39,395 nt of DNA, from positions 1-39,395 of IMG/VR virus record IMGVR_UViG_3300032116_000532; one strand, given 5' to 3'. The translations under genes were made by a program, and so were the position numbers. This stretch comes from a virus. Each line of letters begins with the position of its first letter. Position 1 is the first letter of the stretch. The notes under the pieces are model-generated. The model did no database searches. It saw only the letters and a program-made list of their open reading frames with translations, and had not been told where the DNA came from. Positions 1,154-39,395 of the stretch are shown piece by piece.

Positions 1154-1286
1154 TTATAACACAATCAACCTAATCCCTTGTATAGATTTAACATATGAAA
1201 AATTCTATGAAGGAGGATTTTGTCATTTAAGACTTGATATTGGTTGGTTAAAATGGGGAATCAGTATTATATTTGTAGACAAATAG
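1131..1286 (+). CDS. Small protein, 51 aa
   Basis: The frame opens inside the end of the previous gene. The start at 1131 (MKLTTYTSY) is chosen over ATGs at 1095 and 1122 because it gives the shortest overlap. The C-terminal half, GGFCHLRLDIGWLKWGISIIF, is hydrophobic and amphipathic and recalls the end of the 56-residue protein at 36639-36809 (TRLRIGIIFAIVDV). Its TAG stop at 1284-1286 touches the first base of the tmRNA, so both may share a transcript that needs processing. Coding is plausible but not certain. Confidence 0.5.
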   Translation: MKLTTYTSYNTINLIPCIDLTYEKFYEGGFCHLRLDIGWLKWGISIIFVDK

Positions 1287-1633
1287 GGCCCGTCTGGATT
1301 TGATCCGTATGAGACAGGTATGTACACATGCAGACAAAGTAGGAATGTCTTTAAATACCTGCAAAACAATAAACGCAAAGACTAAGTCTCAGCGTGTAGC
1401 AGAAGGTGATGCTATCTTAGCTTCTATCTTCGGTGAAGTAGCAGTAGCTGCCTAACCTACGGGGTAGTCATACCTGGCAACAGAAAATGACAAGCTGTTT
1501 TCCTAGTTATGTCAAAACTAGGTGGTGGTAAGGCGACCTCTTGGTTCCCCATACTGATCAGTAGATCTAAGCATGTGAGACGTTGTACATATGGGTACTT
1601 ACGGAGACAGGGGTTCGACTCCCCTCGGGTCCA
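1286..1633 (+). ncRNA. ssrA: tmRNA (transfer-messenger RNA)
   Basis: tmRNA rescues ribosomes stalled on broken mRNA and adds a degradation tag. The 5' end GGGCCCG (1286-1292) pairs over 7 bp with CGGGTCC (1626-1632). The third pair is G-U, the identity element read by alanyl-tRNA synthetase, and discriminator A1633 follows. A T arm, AGGGG-TTCGACT-CCCCT, sits just before the 3' strand. TCTGGATTTGA after the acceptor and CTAAGCATGT near 1571 match conserved tmRNA sequences. Between them lies an open tag frame ending GTA GCT GCC TAA (stop 1453-1455), then a region rich in possible pseudoknot stems. CCA is not encoded (CTA follows A1633), so it would be added by the host. A strong terminator follows. 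Length, about 350 nt, is normal. Pairing was checked by hand only. Confidence 0.9.
1375..1455 (+). other. tmRNA tag-peptide reading frame
   Basis: With GCA (1375-1377) as resume codon, the tag has 26 codons before TAA. It begins AKTKSQRVAEG and ends FGEVAVAA. The C-terminal -VAVAA resembles the -ALAA end recognised by ClpXP-type proteases. The resume codon is an inference from the usual Ala/Gly preference. Most bacterial tags have about 10 residues, so this one is long. The frame is open back to an ATG at 1309, which leaves the resume point uncertain. Confidence 0.6.
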
Positions 1634-1663
1634 CTATTTCTCATAGAAATGGCAAACAATCAA

Positions 1664-1694
1664 CCCCGGTGTTTCTACACTGGGGGCTTTTTTT
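1664..1694 (+). terminator. Rho-independent terminator after tmRNA
   Basis: CCCCGGTGT (1664-1672) pairs with ACACTGGGG (1677-1685), with one G-U pair and a 4-base loop. A GC step and seven T (1688-1694) follow. It sits about 30 bases beyond the tmRNA 3' end, as expected for an independently terminated stable RNA. Confidence 0.85.
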
Positions 1695-12695: not shown

Positions 12696-14231
12696 ATGGG
12701 CTTTAAAAGCTTATCTACAGGTAAACAATATAAAAATGTTTACACTATCCTTGAGAAGGTAAAGAAAGGAGAAATCAAATCTTATTACAATGAAAATGAA
12801 GGAGGCTTGTTTGGTAAGATTAATTTCTACAAAAAGCCTGATCTTGTTAAACCGTATTTGCACTACTTAGATGCTGCAAAGCTAAGATCAATCATGAGTA
12901 GTCAAATATATGCTAACTCTCTTACGGACATTATACAAGATTGTTATCAGTCACTTACTAAATCCCGTGATTATAAAAAATGGGTTGGTAAAAATAATGG
13001 AGGGGAACTAAATGCTAGAGAATTTCATAAGGAACTTAAAAATGTTTACAGTGATTTTCCAGAGCATTTACAGAATGACATTTTTAATATGTACTATAAC
13101 AAAATCGAAGACGTTGATTTTGAAACTAGGACAGATAAAAATCATTCTAAGTATAAGTTTCTAGAAAGGTCCAATAATCCTGTTGGTAAGATTATGTCTG
13201 AAAGAAGTAATCTTAAGTCAGGTATATTCATGAGAAATGTCCTTCTCTACTATCTAACAAGATTAGTTTTTCTTAAGATTTCAGATAAAGAATCTTATAA
13301 AAAGATGAAGAACTCTTTGAATGGTGGTAATGACTTTGACAACAGTGATATTGATAACATGTTTGACAAAGATTTTGGTGCAGGAAGTTCTTCTGAAATG
13401 ATGAATGATATGATTGAAAAAGCATCTGAGCTGTGTAAGAAGATGGATGAAGTAATGGATGAAGAAACACAAGAACAAATGTTCCAAAACATTGAAAGAA
13501 ATGAATCTACTGGAGCATCTAAACTTGACGCTGCTTACATTGAGAATGTAAGACGTAAGCTTTTATCTATAAAGATGAATATGTCATCTGTAAAAGATAA
13601 GATCAAGAAGCTAATGGATAAATCTATCTCTTACTTCAGTGCTAAGAAAGAGACTATTCAAGAAAGCTTGTTTGATACAGATAATGTAGCTGGATTAGAT
13701 GAGTTTGTTTTACTTCATCCAAAGCTCCGTAAAATATTTGCTGAAGACATCACTGTAAAAGACACCAAGTCTATTGGTAAGGTGGATGTCTATGTAGATA
13801 TTTCAGGTTCTATGTCTGATACATGCAATATAAATGACACTCAAGTGAGCAAACTTGACTTTGCAAAATCATTTATAGCCGAGCTTAAAAATCAAGACTT
13901 ACTTAATGAGATTTATCTATTTAATACAAAGGTTAAAAAGATAAAAAGTGATCTCATAAGTTTAGCTATGATTGATACCTCTGGTGGTACAGACATTGAT
14001 GTTGCTGTAAAAAAGGTGATAGATAATAAAAACAATGCTATTATTATCACTGATGCAGAAGATCATTGTATGAGTTATTCAGATAAAGCATACTTTATCG
14101 GAGTGAGTGGAGCTAGATTTCACCACTTTAATCCTGAGTGTATTAAGAAATATTCTGATGCAGGACAGGTAATTGTGTTTGACGGCAAAAAAGTTTATTC
14201 TGTTAATGCCCAAGGAAACATAATTAAATAA
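12696..14231 (+). CDS. VWA-domain protein, partner of the MoxR-type ATPase
   Basis: The 511-residue protein has a long helical N-terminal region (about 1-350), rich in charged residues, and a C-terminal von Willebrand A domain. The metal-ion site (MIDAS) is complete: DISGS at 368-372, TSGGTD about 60 residues later, and ITDAED after that. The layout is like CobT and other VWA proteins that form two-part systems with MoxR ATPases. The pair probably remodels a large assembly or loads metal, in the phage or the host. It is the last gene of the + block and ends just before a strong terminator. Confidence 0.85.
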   Translation: MGFKSLSTGKQYKNVYTILEKVKKGEIKSYYNENEGGLFGKINFYKKPDLVKPYLHYLDAAKLRSIMSSQIYANSLTDIIQDCYQSLTKSRDYKKWVGKNNGGELNAREFHKELKNVYSDFPEHLQNDIFNMYYNKIEDVDFETRTDKNHSKYKFLERSNNPVGKIMSERSNLKSGIFMRNVLLYYLTRLVFLKISDKESYKKMKNSLNGGNDFDNSDIDNMFDKDFGAGSSSEMMNDMIEKASELCKKMDEVMDEETQEQMFQNIERNESTGASKLDAAYIENVRRKLLSIKMNMSSVKDKIKKLMDKSISYFSAKKETIQESLFDTDNVAGLDEFVLLHPKLRKIFAEDITVKDTKSIGKVDVYVDISGSMSDTCNINDTQVSKLDFAKSFIAELKNQDLLNEIYLFNTKVKKIKSDLISLAMIDTSGGTDIDVAVKKVIDNKNNAIIITDAEDHCMSYSDKAYFIGVSGARFHHFNPECIKKYSDAGQVIVFDGKKVYSVNAQGNIIK

Positions 14232-32017: not shown

Positions 32018-33955
32018 ATGGAAAATTATGTAAAGCCTAATTGGATAATGGACTATGAGACACTATCTAACTGTTTCATAGGAGTATTCCAACATTATAA
32101 GACAGAAGAAAGAAAGGTGTTTGTTGTTTGCAAACAGCGAACAGACTTCCCAGAATTTATAGCATTTCTAAATGAATGTGTAACTAAAGGTCAGTGGCAT
32201 ATATCCTTTAATGGATTAAACTTTGATGCCCAGATTACACAACACATTCTAAACAATCAAAAGAGACTTTTAAAATTGTCGGCAGAGGCTGTAGCTGCTG
32301 AGGTATATAACTATGCCCAAAAGACAATAGAAAAAAGTAACAATGGAATGTTTGTAGAATATGCTCCACATAAGTTAAAGATCAAACAGATTGATGTATT
32401 TAAACTTAACCACTGGGATAACAGGGCTAAGATGAGTGGTTTGAAATGGGTTCAATATTCTATGGATTGGGAGAATGTTGAAGACATGCCTCATCCTCAT
32501 TATAAACCTGTAGAGAATGAGCAAGAACTTGAGAACATTATAAACTATTGTATAAATGATGTTCTTAGTACAAAAGAAGTTTTTCATCATTCTAAAGAAC
32601 AAATCCTCTTAAGACAAACTTTGACCAAAGAGTATGGAATAGATCTCTATTCTGCTTCTGAACCAAGGATATCTAAAGAGCTGTTTTTACATTTCCTCAG
32701 TCAAAAACTTGGTATTGATAAATCAGATATTAAACAATTAAGGACACCACGTCCCTATATAGTGTTAGCTGATTGTATCCTACCCTACGTTGAATTTAAA
32801 ACTCCAGAGTTTCAAAAGGTACTTGACTACTTCCGTACAAAGGTGATTACATCTACAAAAGAAGGATTTAAGTATAGTGTAGACTACAAAGGAGTTAAGA
32901 CAGACTATGGTCTTGGCGGCATCCACGGATCTATAGACGCTGGTCTCTATGAAGCAAAACCAGGATGGACAATTATGACATCTGATGTTACTAGCTTCTA
33001 TCCCAATCTAGCTATCAAAAACCAGTTTGCTCCACAGCATCTGCCTAAGAAAGAATTCTGTGAACTGTACGAATGGATCTTCGAGGAAAGAAAGAAAATA
33101 CCAAAATCAGATCCAAAGAACTATGTTTACAAGATTATTCTAAATTCTACCTATGGGCTAACTGGTGATGAGAATAGTTTTCTGTACGATCCTAAAATGA
33201 CAATGCAGATTACTATTAATGGTCAACTACTTCTAAGCAAGCTTTATGAAATGCTAACATTAGCAATTCCTGAAGGTATTCCTCTTATGCAAAATACTGA
33301 TGGTCTTGAGATGCTGATTCCTGAATCTGATGTACAAAAATATATGGATGTATGCAGACAATGGGAAGTTCTAACACAGTTGAGTTTAGAACACGATCAA
33401 TATCAAAAGATGATCATCCGTGATGTAAACAACTATATGGCTGTTTATAAGAACGGTAAAGTAAAGTGTAAGGGAGCATTTGAGTGGGAAGACTTAGACA
33501 AAAAGAAGGTAGCTATGTTTCATAAAAACAAAAGCTTCCTGATTATTCCTAAAGCAATTAATGCTTACTTCATTAATGGTACTAAACCAGAAGATTTCTT
33601 AGAACAGAACAATAATATATATGATTATTGTGCCGGTGTAAAAGCAAAAGCCGGTTGGAGGTTTGAAGAAAGAAAAGTGGTTAATAGTCAATTAGTTATA
33701 AATAAGCTACAGAAGATTGTAAGGTATTATGTTTCCAATACTGGAAGCAAACTAGTAAAATGTCATGACGACGGACGAGAAATACAGGTAGAATCTGGTG
33801 AATGGTTACAAACAATAATTAATAAACTAGATAAAAATCTGCCGTTTGCTAGTTATGATATAAACAAGAAGTATTATCTTGAAGAGATTTATAAACAAAT
33901 AGAACAGATTGAAGAAGTAACTTTTAAATCTAGTGTACAACTTTCATTATTTTAA
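32018..33955 (+). CDS. Family B DNA polymerase
   Basis: This replicative polymerase has 645 residues. The exonuclease part has Exo I DYETL (Asp12, Glu14), Exo II SFNGLNFDAQ, and Exo III YCINDVLST. The polymerase part has motif A SDVTSFYPNLAIK (Asp323), motif B KIILNSTYGL (from Lys372) and motif C QNTDG (Asp428), where the usual Y-x-DTD is reduced to NTD. The set is complete for proofreading and synthesis, but the protein is short compared with T4-type enzymes, as in several Bacteroidota phages. It is the centre of the replication block. The protein begins MENYVKPNW after a terminator. Confidence 0.92.
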   Translation: MENYVKPNWIMDYETLSNCFIGVFQHYKTEERKVFVVCKQRTDFPEFIAFLNECVTKGQWHISFNGLNFDAQITQHILNNQKRLLKLSAEAVAAEVYNYAQKTIEKSNNGMFVEYAPHKLKIKQIDVFKLNHWDNRAKMSGLKWVQYSMDWENVEDMPHPHYKPVENEQELENIINYCINDVLSTKEVFHHSKEQILLRQTLTKEYGIDLYSASEPRISKELFLHFLSQKLGIDKSDIKQLRTPRPYIVLADCILPYVEFKTPEFQKVLDYFRTKVITSTKEGFKYSVDYKGVKTDYGLGGIHGSIDAGLYEAKPGWTIMTSDVTSFYPNLAIKNQFAPQHLPKKEFCELYEWIFEERKKIPKSDPKNYVYKIILNSTYGLTGDENSFLYDPKMTMQITINGQLLLSKLYEMLTLAIPEGIPLMQNTDGLEMLIPESDVQKYMDVCRQWEVLTQLSLEHDQYQKMIIRDVNNYMAVYKNGKVKCKGAFEWEDLDKKKVAMFHKNKSFLIIPKAINAYFINGTKPEDFLEQNNNIYDYCAGVKAKAGWRFEERKVVNSQLVINKLQKIVRYYVSNTGSKLVKCHDDGREIQVESGEWLQTIINKLDKNLPFASYDINKKYYLEEIYKQIEQIEEVTFKSSVQLSLF

Positions 33956-36816: not shown

Positions 36817-36858
36817 CGTAAGGGACGGTTATTTATACTGTCCCTTACGAGCTTTTTC
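36817..36858. terminator. Bidirectional terminator overlapping the end of the minus-strand gene
   Basis: CGTAAGGGAC (36817-36826) pairs perfectly with GTCCCTTACG (36840-36849) around a 13-base loop. On the + strand AGCTTTTT follows. The TAA of the minus-strand gene lies inside the loop and its last codons form one side of the stem. Confidence 0.8.
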
Positions 36859-39395
36859 AGCAGATTCCATAGCTTTTCTTGGAGACAAGCTAGATCCAGT
36901 AAGACCAAAGATTTTAGCAAGGTCGGCTACAGCTTTAGATGCATCTCTTTTTTGCCATGGATAAACACCTCCAGGTATATTCTTTTGATAGTAGGAACTA
37001 TTATCCCCCACTATATTACCATAAGTGTGTTCAATAACTTGCCATGGAAGCTTAACACCCACATCCCATAGTGCACTTGGATCAGGAAGCTGTTTAGCAG
37101 TATTTAAAAACATTCTAGGATGGGAAAAAGTCTGAACCTCTGTAAGAGTAGTAAGTGTGATAACAGCTGCTTGATTTACAAGCCATCCTTCTAAGTTAAA
37201 GTTTTTACCAAATATCACATCCTTTTGTCTTCTTTCCATCTTTTTGAAACGGTCTCTATCATCGTCATCATACTCAAACATGTATGATAAGAGCATATAC
37301 ATCATAGCAAGAGAAGCTACCTGACCTACCACCTTACGTGCTGCAGCTGCTTCGTCAGCATCCATTAATTTATAGTAGTTTTCACCATGTTTAGCATATA
37401 CAATGAAATTCTTTAACATTCTTAAAAATGCAGTGTAATTACCAGAACTCACTGTACCTAAAGCAGCACTGGTTCTTTTAGCTGCAACATGGTTCATAAA
37501 CATAGAAGTAAAGTACTTCTTAAAAAATAAACCAATTTGTCCAAAGTAGTATCTATTAATTTCAGGTTGACCAAATCTACTATAGTTACCTTCTAAACGG
37601 TCACCTATTTCATGAATCTTATTCTTAATCTCATTAAACTTTTTACCCCCTGGGGCATACGCAGGATCAATTCCAGGTTTTAATTCAATCTGCCCATTTA
37701 CAAGATGGAAAGCATTGATATAGGGAATTTCATTTGTTGCTCCATTGATAGTTTGTTTAACCTTTTCAAAGTAGAGCATACCACACATCACCTCTGTAGT
37801 AGCTTCAAGCTGTAAGAACTTTCTAGGTGACATTAAGAAACTAAGATTAGCAGCGTCATCAATAGCTGATCTACCAAATTGAGTTTCTACAGTTTTTCTA
37901 AAAAAGTCTTGAGCAGGGTCAAAGATTTGCATCAACTGTACATCCAAAGATTTATTCTTCAATCTATAAATCTCTGTAGAATTTGCAACCATCATTTTAA
38001 AAGCTCTAGCTTTACCTAATGCATAACTAGGAAGGTCTAAGAATCTACTTCCTGAAGCTTCTATAAATCCTTGTACAACGGCTGCATTTCTATTTTTAAT
38101 AGCTGATGGTATATTTAATGCAAAAGATGCTAAGCTTACTGTTTTTGAAGCAATTGCTTTAAGCTTCCATAAAAGAGGTATATTTTGTGAAAAGTCTGTT
38201 ATACGGATACCTTCAAATTCTCTCTCATACAAGTTACGAATAGCTTTAGCACGAACAGACATGTTCTTAGGTTTCAAACCAACCTTCTCACCAGTTTTTT
38301 GATAAATCCATTTTACAAACTTATCTGTTTTAGCTACAGAATTTTTAGGATCTGTCACTACACTTTGAAGAGCTTTTGCAAACGGATTAATTTCAATCAG
38401 TTTTTTTTGAGTGATTCCAGAGTGCATATACCTCATCATAGAATCTAGAAAGTTCATACTTACCTCCTCAGGCTTCATATCATAAAGACCCTGTATAGGA
38501 ATTTGTCTATGTTCTTCATCAAACATATCAGCATTTACAAGCTGACCTGGATTAAAGTTTAATCCTTTTTCATAGTCATCTTTACCCGTAAAGAAGGTTT
38601 TTCTTATATTAAGAAACCATCTTTTACCAGCATCTATTTTTTTAGAAAGCTGTGCATTTTCAATAGCCTGAGTTCCAAACCTAGGTACTTGCATATACAG
38701 ACGACTCTGTCTAGGCATCTCTTCTTGAAACTTCAGATGGTATTCTTTCATTTTTTCAAGAACATCAAACTTAGCACGATCTGATCTTTTTAGATTGTCA
38801 TACTCAGCATTGATATACGGAGAATCAGACTTAGCACCTTCAGCAATTGTTTTAGGTAAGAAGTTTCCTTTATTGTCTACTGTTTTACCTACAATCTTTT
38901 CTGTCTTATACTGATCTTTAACCTTACGATAAAAGTAAGAAAGGTTAGGACTGCCCTCAATTATTTCTCCAGAGGCAAGTTTAATTGTTTCAAAGTGAGA
39001 AGGGTCATTAGGTCTAACCTTATTCCAAACATACAATCTTTCATACACTACAATATTCTTCTTTGTAGCAGCATCAAATACTTCTTTTCTAATGTGATTA
39101 TCTTCAAACCATTTTTTAAACTCAGGGCTTTCTTTAAATAACTCTACATACCTGCCAGGTTGAAGAATCTCATTAGCTGTAGCACCCGTAATACGGTCAG
39201 CTACACCCATTTTACCAAAATAATTATTTACAATATCTACATAGTAGTCTGTAGCATCTTTAGACTGTAAGGCACCGAGTTGTCTATAAAGATTAGACAG
39301 CTCTATCTGAGTGGCTTTATCAACCCCAAACTCTGCTTTACGTTCAGTGAGTTCATTAAGTCTGAAACGTTGTTCAGGAGTGAGTTTTTGTCCTG
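36829..39395 (-). CDS. C-terminal part of a very large virion-type protein (5' end outside window)
   Basis: The frame is open through the window end: upstream of the first ATG at 39210 it continues with GQKLTPEQRFRLNELTERKA, so 855 residues are visible and the start is missing. The body is long, mostly helical and Lys-rich. It carries membrane-like segments near the end (AIASKTVSLASFALNIPS, VASLAMMYMLLSYMFEYDDDD). Its build, a huge helical protein with a few hydrophobic segments, is that of internal virion cargo or ejection proteins of large phages, and of the giant proteins next to head genes in crAss-like phages. No polymerase catalytic motif is seen in this part. Confidence 0.65.
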   Translation of the reverse strand, partial: GQKLTPEQRFRLNELTERKAEFGVDKATQIELSNLYRQLGALQSKDATDYYVDIVNNYFGKMGVADRITGATANEILQPGRYVELFKESPEFKKWFEDNHIRKEVFDAATKKNIVVYERLYVWNKVRPNDPSHFETIKLASGEIIEGSPNLSYFYRKVKDQYKTEKIVGKTVDNKGNFLPKTIAEGAKSDSPYINAEYDNLKRSDRAKFDVLEKMKEYHLKFQEEMPRQSRLYMQVPRFGTQAIENAQLSKKIDAGKRWFLNIRKTFFTGKDDYEKGLNFNPGQLVNADMFDEEHRQIPIQGLYDMKPEEVSMNFLDSMMRYMHSGITQKKLIEINPFAKALQSVVTDPKNSVAKTDKFVKWIYQKTGEKVGLKPKNMSVRAKAIRNLYEREFEGIRITDFSQNIPLLWKLKAIASKTVSLASFALNIPSAIKNRNAAVVQGFIEASGSRFLDLPSYALGKARAFKMMVANSTEIYRLKNKSLDVQLMQIFDPAQDFFRKTVETQFGRSAIDDAANLSFLMSPRKFLQLEATTEVMCGMLYFEKVKQTINGATNEIPYINAFHLVNGQIELKPGIDPAYAPGGKKFNEIKNKIHEIGDRLEGNYSRFGQPEINRYYFGQIGLFFKKYFTSMFMNHVAAKRTSAALGTVSSGNYTAFLRMLKNFIVYAKHGENYYKLMDADEAAAARKVVGQVASLAMMYMLLSYMFEYDDDDRDRFKKMERRQKDVIFGKNFNLEGWLVNQAAVITLTTLTEVQTFSHPRMFLNTAKQLPDPSALWDVGVKLPWQVIEHTYGNIVGDNSSYYQKNIPGGVYPWQKRDASKAVADLAKIFGLTGSSLSPRKAMESAEKARKGQYK

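Follow-up and report, generated by a model that had tools for sequence, protein, structure and literature searches.

The tmRNA gene and its surroundings

The stretch of DNA analysed here (the window) comprises 39,395 bases and is identical with the whole of its IMG/VR record. ARAGORN identified a one-piece tmRNA at 1286–1634 with a 26-aa tag at gene positions 90–170. In parallel, the Rfam model RF00023 matched 1286–1636 over its full length (1–374) with 87.7 bits (E = 7.2e-33), above the gathering cut-off of 47. The T arm, acceptor stem and tRNA-like domain are all present in the ARAGORN structure, and the third pair of the acceptor stem, read from the sequence, is G1288–U1630, which we take to be the alanine-identity G-U pair. 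The 3' end of the gene is CTA, with the CCA not encoded. Positions 1286–1636 of the window are a genuine one-piece phage tmRNA, with the parts and neighbours given below.

1286..1636, + strand: one-piece tmRNA gene (ARAGORN, Rfam)
1286–1292 with 1626–1632: acceptor stem GGGCCCG/CGGGUCC, third pair G1288–U1630 (from the sequence)
1369..1374, + strand: AUAAAC directly 5' of the resume codon, U1370 and A1371 occupying the places of E. coli U85 and A86
1375..1377, + strand: resume codon GCA (Ala), placed by ARAGORN, Rfam and relatives
1375..1455, + strand: tag reading frame, 26 codons plus TAA, AKTKSQRVAEGDAILASIFGEVAVAA (ARAGORN)
1664..1692, + strand: intrinsic-terminator-like hairpin and T run 3' of the tmRNA, 9 pairs, 6 of them G-C
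32018..33955, + strand: DNA polymerase, a tag-independent marker for related phages

A comparable hairpin and T run stands 3' of the tmRNA in the relatives L103, L104, L105 and L108. Elsewhere in the window, a MoxR-type ATPase (PF20030; 11503–12609, + strand) is followed by a 511-aa protein (12696–14231, + strand), for which no Pfam or PHROG match was found; the same holds for a 793-aa ORF at 36829–39210 (− strand).

Position of the resume codon and length of the tag

The original prediction had placed the tag at 1375–1455, and these coordinates proved exact, covering 26 codons followed by TAA. In the structural alignment to the Rfam model, which had been proposed as a check on the resume codon, AAACAAUAAACGCAAAG falls on the consensus AAAAAAUAAuUGCaAAC with high posterior, giving 1375. 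The window has U at −5 and A at −4 of this codon (1370 and 1371); in E. coli, A86, four bases 5' of the resume codon, is described as the main determinant of the frame (PMC2481249). Throughout the 26 aligned sequences of the window's own tag class (class A, below; window included), the A at −4 is invariant and the resume codon, in the same place, begins with G (encoding A, G, D or V).

A caution had been raised that the frame is open back to an ATG at 1309, making the resume point doubtful. The frame is indeed open, but the doubt did not hold, as the upstream ATG is not conserved in relatives: followed upstream in frame, 28 of 33 sequences (window included) reach a stop without meeting an ATG, and the opening back to 1309 looks like chance. 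If the long frame were fortuitous or the resume codon misplaced, the real tag would be one of about 10 aa starting near 1420, where GCT would give an 11-aa tag (ASIFGEVAVAA) with a normal end. At this GCT, however, the base at −4 is C and the codon itself is inside a hairpin stem, whereas 1375 is favoured by its position, its G-first codon, the A at −4, the conserved frame, the covariation described below and the relatives with upstream stops. We regard a restart near 1420 as scarcely credible.

At 26 codons, the tag is as unusually long as had been claimed: tags of 10 aa are the commonest according to PMC11915505, and this one is about 2.5 times as long as usual. Other reports describe tmRNA ORF length as highly variable (PMC4236655) and give mRNA-like regions of 48 to 126 nt for one set of tmRNAs (PMC1168896). 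The VAVAA terminus, suggested to be a plausible degradation end, is in keeping with its family, in which 29 of the 33 distinct class A–C tags end in V/I/L-A-A and the other four in L-A. Avoidance of degradation looks, for this reason, the least likely of the three roles put forward for the longer tag.

Long tags in related phages

Tags of 24–27 codons were found in 40 IMG/VR records including the window (39 further), and fall into three classes: A, with an RV.EG core; B, of the DNTTVELSDYTFESLLAELETSELELA type; and C, of the ..INMAFAN.RVAVAA type. The search kept 80 IMG/VR relatives of the window's DNA polymerase, most of which are fragments. Nine of the 80 have a tmRNA with a readable tag (eight above the Rfam cut-off, and G080 below it), and in all nine the tag is 24–27 aa long. 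Among the 11 polymerase relatives of at least 100 kb, seven carry a tmRNA and four have none detectable by Rfam; a candidate in G018 turned out to be a tRNA-Leu.

The core pattern RVAEG(D/E)AILA occurred in 25 IMG/VR stretches, each with a tmRNA resume context on its 5' side (25/25). A 3'-end pattern gave at least 120 matches, and ARAGORN made 87 tmRNA calls in the 117 newly fetched loci. Among the 3'-end-pattern matches listed, tags were mostly 10 aa long, and those of at least 22 aa were confined to L200, L204, L220, L244, L252 and L255, all in the window's family. The DNA polymerases of carriers range down to 33–35% identity with that of the window (with a match in 18 of the 31 records tested), although the tag core hardly varies; horizontal transfer of the tmRNA among carriers is possible. 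ARAGORN tags were corrected by hand in L091 (other frame), L092 and L094 (4 codons late) and L244/L311 (5 codons late), and in L083/L095, L096, L286, L301 and L310, where ARAGORN missed the tmRNA, the Rfam match together with the resume context gave the tag.

The T-loop of one relative's tmRNA (G106) contains a group I intron (RF00028, 85.5 bits; L124 7071–7287); introns at this loop have been described for bacterial tmRNAs (PMC11915505). Much longer tmRNAs were indicated by Rfam in some relatives (684 nt in L104, 643 nt in L108). Between the tag and the 3' end, L104, L105, L108, L124 and L125 hold one or two copies of a module, ATAAA..TTAAGA..CAAA, which looks like an added structured element and matched no separate Rfam family in L104, L105, L108 or L124. 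A likely 34-codon tag, AENDTTLGDNVIPLFGARAATTFGAPTQQLAAVA, with a strongly folded ORF (z −4.29) was seen in L301 (G119, a 182,719-base record), and a second phage type, represented by L085/L088 (G049) and L086/L098 (G083), has a 32-codon tag, AKTNKVKSYFAKMSRKVSETFSSEFEALPLAA. A contig from a Sphingomonadaceae MAG (L087) carries a 52% relative of the phage polymerase, and is possibly a misbinned phage contig.

Phage type and host

Proteins of a 127-kb relative (G090) match the PHROG terminase, portal and major head families. Among 133 named records, uncultured crAss-like, Bacteroides, Flavobacterium and Cellulophaga phages gave the leading matches to the terminase of a relative. The best capsid match was the cyanobacterial Leptolyngbya phage Lbo-JY46 (29%), followed by crAss-like and Cellulophaga phages. 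A Shine-Dalgarno-like motif was seen at 0 of 41 gene starts of the window, and these starts (n = 41) show an A peak at −12/−11, a combination that we take to be the Bacteroidota pattern. Judging from these matches and start contexts, the window probably derives from a tailed phage with a bacterium of the Bacteroidota as host; the best capsid match, to a cyanobacterial phage, counts against this host. The tags of Bacteroidota are short, of the GE-N/T-NYALAA type. SmpB was found in none of the 36 tmRNA-bearing records by a search that was positive in 10 of 14 control genomes, and host SmpB is therefore presumably used.

Hairpins within the tag reading frame

Helices inside the ORF were first predicted by RNAalifold from 18 aligned 5' halves. 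In the window, they form three hairpins.

1373..1395, + strand: hairpin I, around the resume codon, ACGC/GCGU plus AGAC-UAA-GUCU, with the strongest covariation at pair 1376–1392
1399..1434, + strand: hairpin II, tag codons 9–20, core AEGDAILASIFG, with one U-U mismatch in the window (1410–1422)
1438..1451, + strand: hairpin III, in the codons of the VAVAA end, GUAGC-AGUA-GCUGC

Pairing was counted over 26 distinct class A ORFs (window included), amounting to 728 cells. Pairs were formed in 89.8% of cells, compared with a shuffle mean of 83.5%, and 0 of 500 shuffles reached the observed value; with the partners slid by 1–3 columns, pairing dropped to 33–48%. The overall covariation score was 0.179 against 0.080 for the shuffles (0/500), and each hairpin taken singly exceeded 500 of 500 shuffles (0.214 against 0.061 for hairpin I, 0.167 against 0.101 for II and 0.156 against 0.047 for III), values to be read with the tool's warning that related sequences can beat shuffles without structure. 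The count of pairs with changes on both sides was matched by 327 of 500 shuffles in hairpin II and 483 of 500 in hairpin III, because few pairs vary. Broken pairs occur at 14–18 (12 of 26 sequences), 32–65 (11 of 26) and 11–21 (8 of 26).

The second base of the resume codon and the third base of codon 6 are paired in 26 of 26 sequences through five pair types (CG in 10, GC in 7, UG in 5, AU in 3 and GU in 1). On a tree of the flanks, with the tag left out, this pair underwent at least seven changes and the pair between codon-13 base 3 and codon-15 base 3 (pair 45–51; paired in 22 of 26) at least 14, counts that are approximate given the modest support of the tree (5 of 23 inner branches starred). 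As a consequence of the first of these pairs, tag residues 1 and 6 change together, residue 6 being E or Q where residue 1 is A, D or S where it is G, S where it is D and E where it is V; L103 and L110, with near-identical flanks, are one such double change apart. The retrieval pattern spared codons 1–6 and left most third bases of the core free, and the informative pairs, 8–24, 42–54 and 45–51, lie at free bases. In the V-type members (L093, L200 and L204), the peptide becomes ASIIAMAF and there is still a hairpin, made of different pairs.

The most stable fold places the resume codon within a hairpin in all 26 class A sequences, all 5 of class B (four of them via the third base alone), both of class C and four of the six other long tags. 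In class A, the resume codon and its upstream neighbours pair with the next codons, which is the arrangement that characterises helix m. Comparison among relatives shows that the three predicted hairpins of the tag ORF are kept by compensatory changes. The earlier interpretation, a long tag with a plausible degradation end, stands as far as it went, but it had missed that the tag coding sequence doubles as RNA structure.

Constraint on RNA and on peptide

Synonymous-codon shuffles that keep the peptides reached the observed pairing in 0 of 2000 cases for hairpin II, 0 of 2000 for hairpin III and 2 of 2000 for the inner part of hairpin I; the outer part of hairpin I was uninformative in these codon-aware shuffles (2000 of 2000 reached the observed pairing). 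Folding energy was examined in a set of 39 distinct ORFs with long tags, including six that do not belong to the window's family. Relative to random synonymous versions built with genome codons, the mean z was −2.57, with 36 of 39 below −1, and under a null using pooled tag codons it shrank to −1.62, with 23 of 39 below −1. Tested likewise, 35 distinct short-tag ORFs (8–14 codons) had a mean z of 0.07, that is, no excess folding. For the window ORF alone, z was −1.81 with genome codons, −0.29 with tag codons and −1.62 with dinucleotide shuffles. Little or no excess folding was evident for FpV21 (z −0.15), for L088 with its 32-aa tag (−0.71) and for L099 (−0.78).

Selection on the tag, which the original prediction had proposed to look for, was indicated by six members found without need of the tag pattern: pN/pS over codons 7–19 was 0.43 in the tag frame, the other frames giving 1.07 and 1.86. 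For the four class B sequences by themselves, it was 0.56 against 0.95 and 1.71. A selection ratio of 0.20 was dropped as biased, most of the 28 records behind it having come from a pattern that fixes residues 7–16. Length changes within the ORF are 0 or 3 nt in the 26 class A sequences. The compensating change in hairpin I alters the amino acid; in hairpin II, the two pairs that vary on both sides link third codon positions, which leaves the peptide unchanged. An open peptide frame thus appears from these comparisons to be conserved, which is shown more weakly than the hairpins. A good deal of the constraint falls on the RNA, and with three covarying hairpins in the ORF, conservation alone is no proof of a peptide signal.

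The invariant codons CGT, TTC and ATC depart from phage codon use, but codon optimisation was rejected as evidence that the tag is translated because hairpin pairing accounts for CGT and TTC. An amphipathic helix was likewise rejected, the hydrophobic moments of nine family tags not being above those of shuffles (p 0.30–0.75); among four other long tags, amphipathicity was significant for the L088 tag alone (p 0.015). The tag peptide gave no Pfam or PDB match.

Proposed function and alternatives

We consider it probable that the gene specifies a trans-translation RNA of a probable Bacteroidota phage, working with host SmpB and host proteases, in which the extra codons serve both RNA structure and a conserved peptide. 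Host alanyl-tRNA synthetase would charge the phage tmRNA and host SmpB would carry it to stalled ribosomes during infection; translation would then resume at GCA 1375 and add the 26-residue tag ending in VAVAA, and the tagged product would be removed by a host AAA+ protease. The tag ORF would be long because it is dual-coded, holding three consecutive RNA hairpins together with an open peptide frame. Hairpin I may be an extended form of the E. coli helix m, and hairpins II and III may fold an mRNA-like region that would otherwise be an open loop of ~80 nt, possibly replacing helix 5. The hairpins would most likely keep the tmRNA compact and nuclease-resistant and present the resume codon, which may be held until the ribosome or S1 melts them. 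The peptide core, RVAEGEAILASIF, would be a secondary feature, either facing the protease or acting as a spacer. According to a suggestion made in 2008 (PMC2481249), the access of ligands could be blocked by a helix at this codon, in which case hairpin I might be a hindrance and not a help.

The order of importance could also be reversed, with the tag core signalling to a protease or adaptor other than ClpXP, like the Lon-read tag of Mesoplasma florum, and the hairpins being secondary. Codons 7–19 are the best conserved part of the aligned 5' half, with a mean column identity of 0.91 (0.87 for the resume context, 0.85 from the stop to PK2, 0.73 for the 5' TLD/H2 and 0.62 for PK1); the core is conserved although some carriers' polymerases share just 33–35% with the window's, and the changes on both sides of hairpin II fall where they preserve the peptide. 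Against this, 25 of the contigs had been obtained by a pattern that fixes residues 7–16. The V-type members have another peptide, yet still have a hairpin, of different pairs; classes B and C have different peptides of equal length; the tag gave no match in Pfam or PDB; and ClpXP is not known to be lacking in Bacteroidota. A peptide-first explanation is on balance somewhat unlikely. The steady tag length (24–27) over classes with unrelated peptides would also suit a plain spacer, in which the extra residues lengthen the unstructured end gripped by an AAA+ protease and sequence hardly matters, but the class A sequence is too conserved for this and its ORF is folded and covarying, which makes a plain spacer quite improbable.

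Interference, in which the phage tmRNA would mainly titrate host SmpB or protease and not act in rescue, draws on the tmRNA-like fragment of phage DS6A, said to resemble an inhibitory molecule (PMC4131195; PMC11915505), and on the finding of phage SmpB in 0 of 36 records. A pure decoy, however, would have no need of the complete ORF, the stop, the G-U acceptor pair or the degradation end, all of which are kept; we judge interference very improbable. A further-reaching reading, which we regard as speculative and unlikely, would make this a self-folded hairpin-chain tmRNA whose peptide re-routes stalled products to a fate chosen by the phage (another protease or a binding partner), with the resume pairing as a regulated gate and with several origins (the window's family, the Bxz1 type and the 34-aa tag of L301).

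The window tmRNA is a variant of tmRNA and not a new category. In the open-licence literature searched, we did not find this tag family, a tag ORF consisting entirely of hairpins, or covariation of the resume helix. In this phage family, compensatory changes have arisen naturally at the resume codon, changes of the first tag residue among them, and pairing of the resume codon before decoding therefore becomes directly testable. It also provides one coding sequence carrying two loads at once, RNA structure and peptide. Tag peptides could be sought in cultured Flavobacterium phages, which hold an unannotated relative.

Comparison with known systems

With the bacterial ssrA tmRNA of E. coli, the window tmRNA shares the TLD, the pseudoknot region, UA at −5/−4, the resume codon GCA and a hydrophobic AA end. 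It differs in having 26 codons instead of 10, a longer resume helix supported by covariation, and two additional hairpins wholly within the ORF. The stop codon lies in the loop of E. coli helix 5, whereas here, with pairing examined within the ORF, it is outside, hairpin III ending 5' of the stop. Helix m at the E. coli resume codon has been placed at residues 87–98 by energy and at 88–100 by footprinting, and its melting by S1 discussed (PMC1168896); in that 2005 model, helix m came from energy only, and helix 5 was weakly supported by compensatory changes (PMC1168896). E. coli-type ORFs fold GUCG-CAAA-CGAC, which differs from hairpin I in its pairs and length. The covariation among the phages may be comparative support for the predicted helix m of E. 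coli. Helix 5 of E. coli is described as changeable provided that pairing is kept (PMC4236655), a precedent for structure within the tag frame being of importance.

Phage-borne tmRNAs have been reported in 402 of 18,146 phages (PMC9004378), and 10 are listed in PMC4131195. Long phage tags are already known, at least as annotations, from the Mycobacterium Bxz1-type phages, whose 25-aa tag (ATDTDATVTDAEIEAFFAEEAAALV) is also encoded by a well-folding ORF (z −2.75) that has its resume codon inside a hairpin. The Bxz1 type differs in its host phylum, and its peptide similarity to the window's family is weak (best p 0.0004 in 12 comparisons, for L252 and uncorrected; p 0.04 for the window and 0.04–0.88 for the rest). 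A further relative was detected by Rfam (58.2 bits) and missed by ARAGORN in Flavobacterium phage FpV21.

84348–84762: FpV21 tmRNA (L286 / L315), in cultured F. psychrophilum phages

Its 35-aa tag, GNTNNSVVSLEDNAQVEANMNMAFSLIREDVAVAA, was read from the resume context. All 29 matching Flavobacterium phage records (some being RefSeq copies of one phage) carry the FpV21-type tmRNA, and 0 of the 29 have an annotated feature under it, some having no annotation at all. The FpV21 group shares with the window a Bacteroidota phage background, a long tag ending in VAVAA and, with class C, an NMAF stretch; it differs in its 35 codons and in an ORF without excess folding.

The Mesoplasma florum ssrA tag, of ~27 aa and read by Lon, shares the unusual length, in which its likeness to the window's tag consists, and is bacterial. 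The permuted two-piece tmRNAs of Crassvirales, in L287 (cr7_1), L288 (cr50_1) and L289 (cr10_1), have similar tags according to ARAGORN (DNVNNIVDYTNVA, GNNFVTDYTAIGA and GNNFVTDYTQLAVA). They share with the window a phage group related through its terminase and, with class B, DYT in the tags, and differ from it in the permuted gene and in tags of 13–14 aa.
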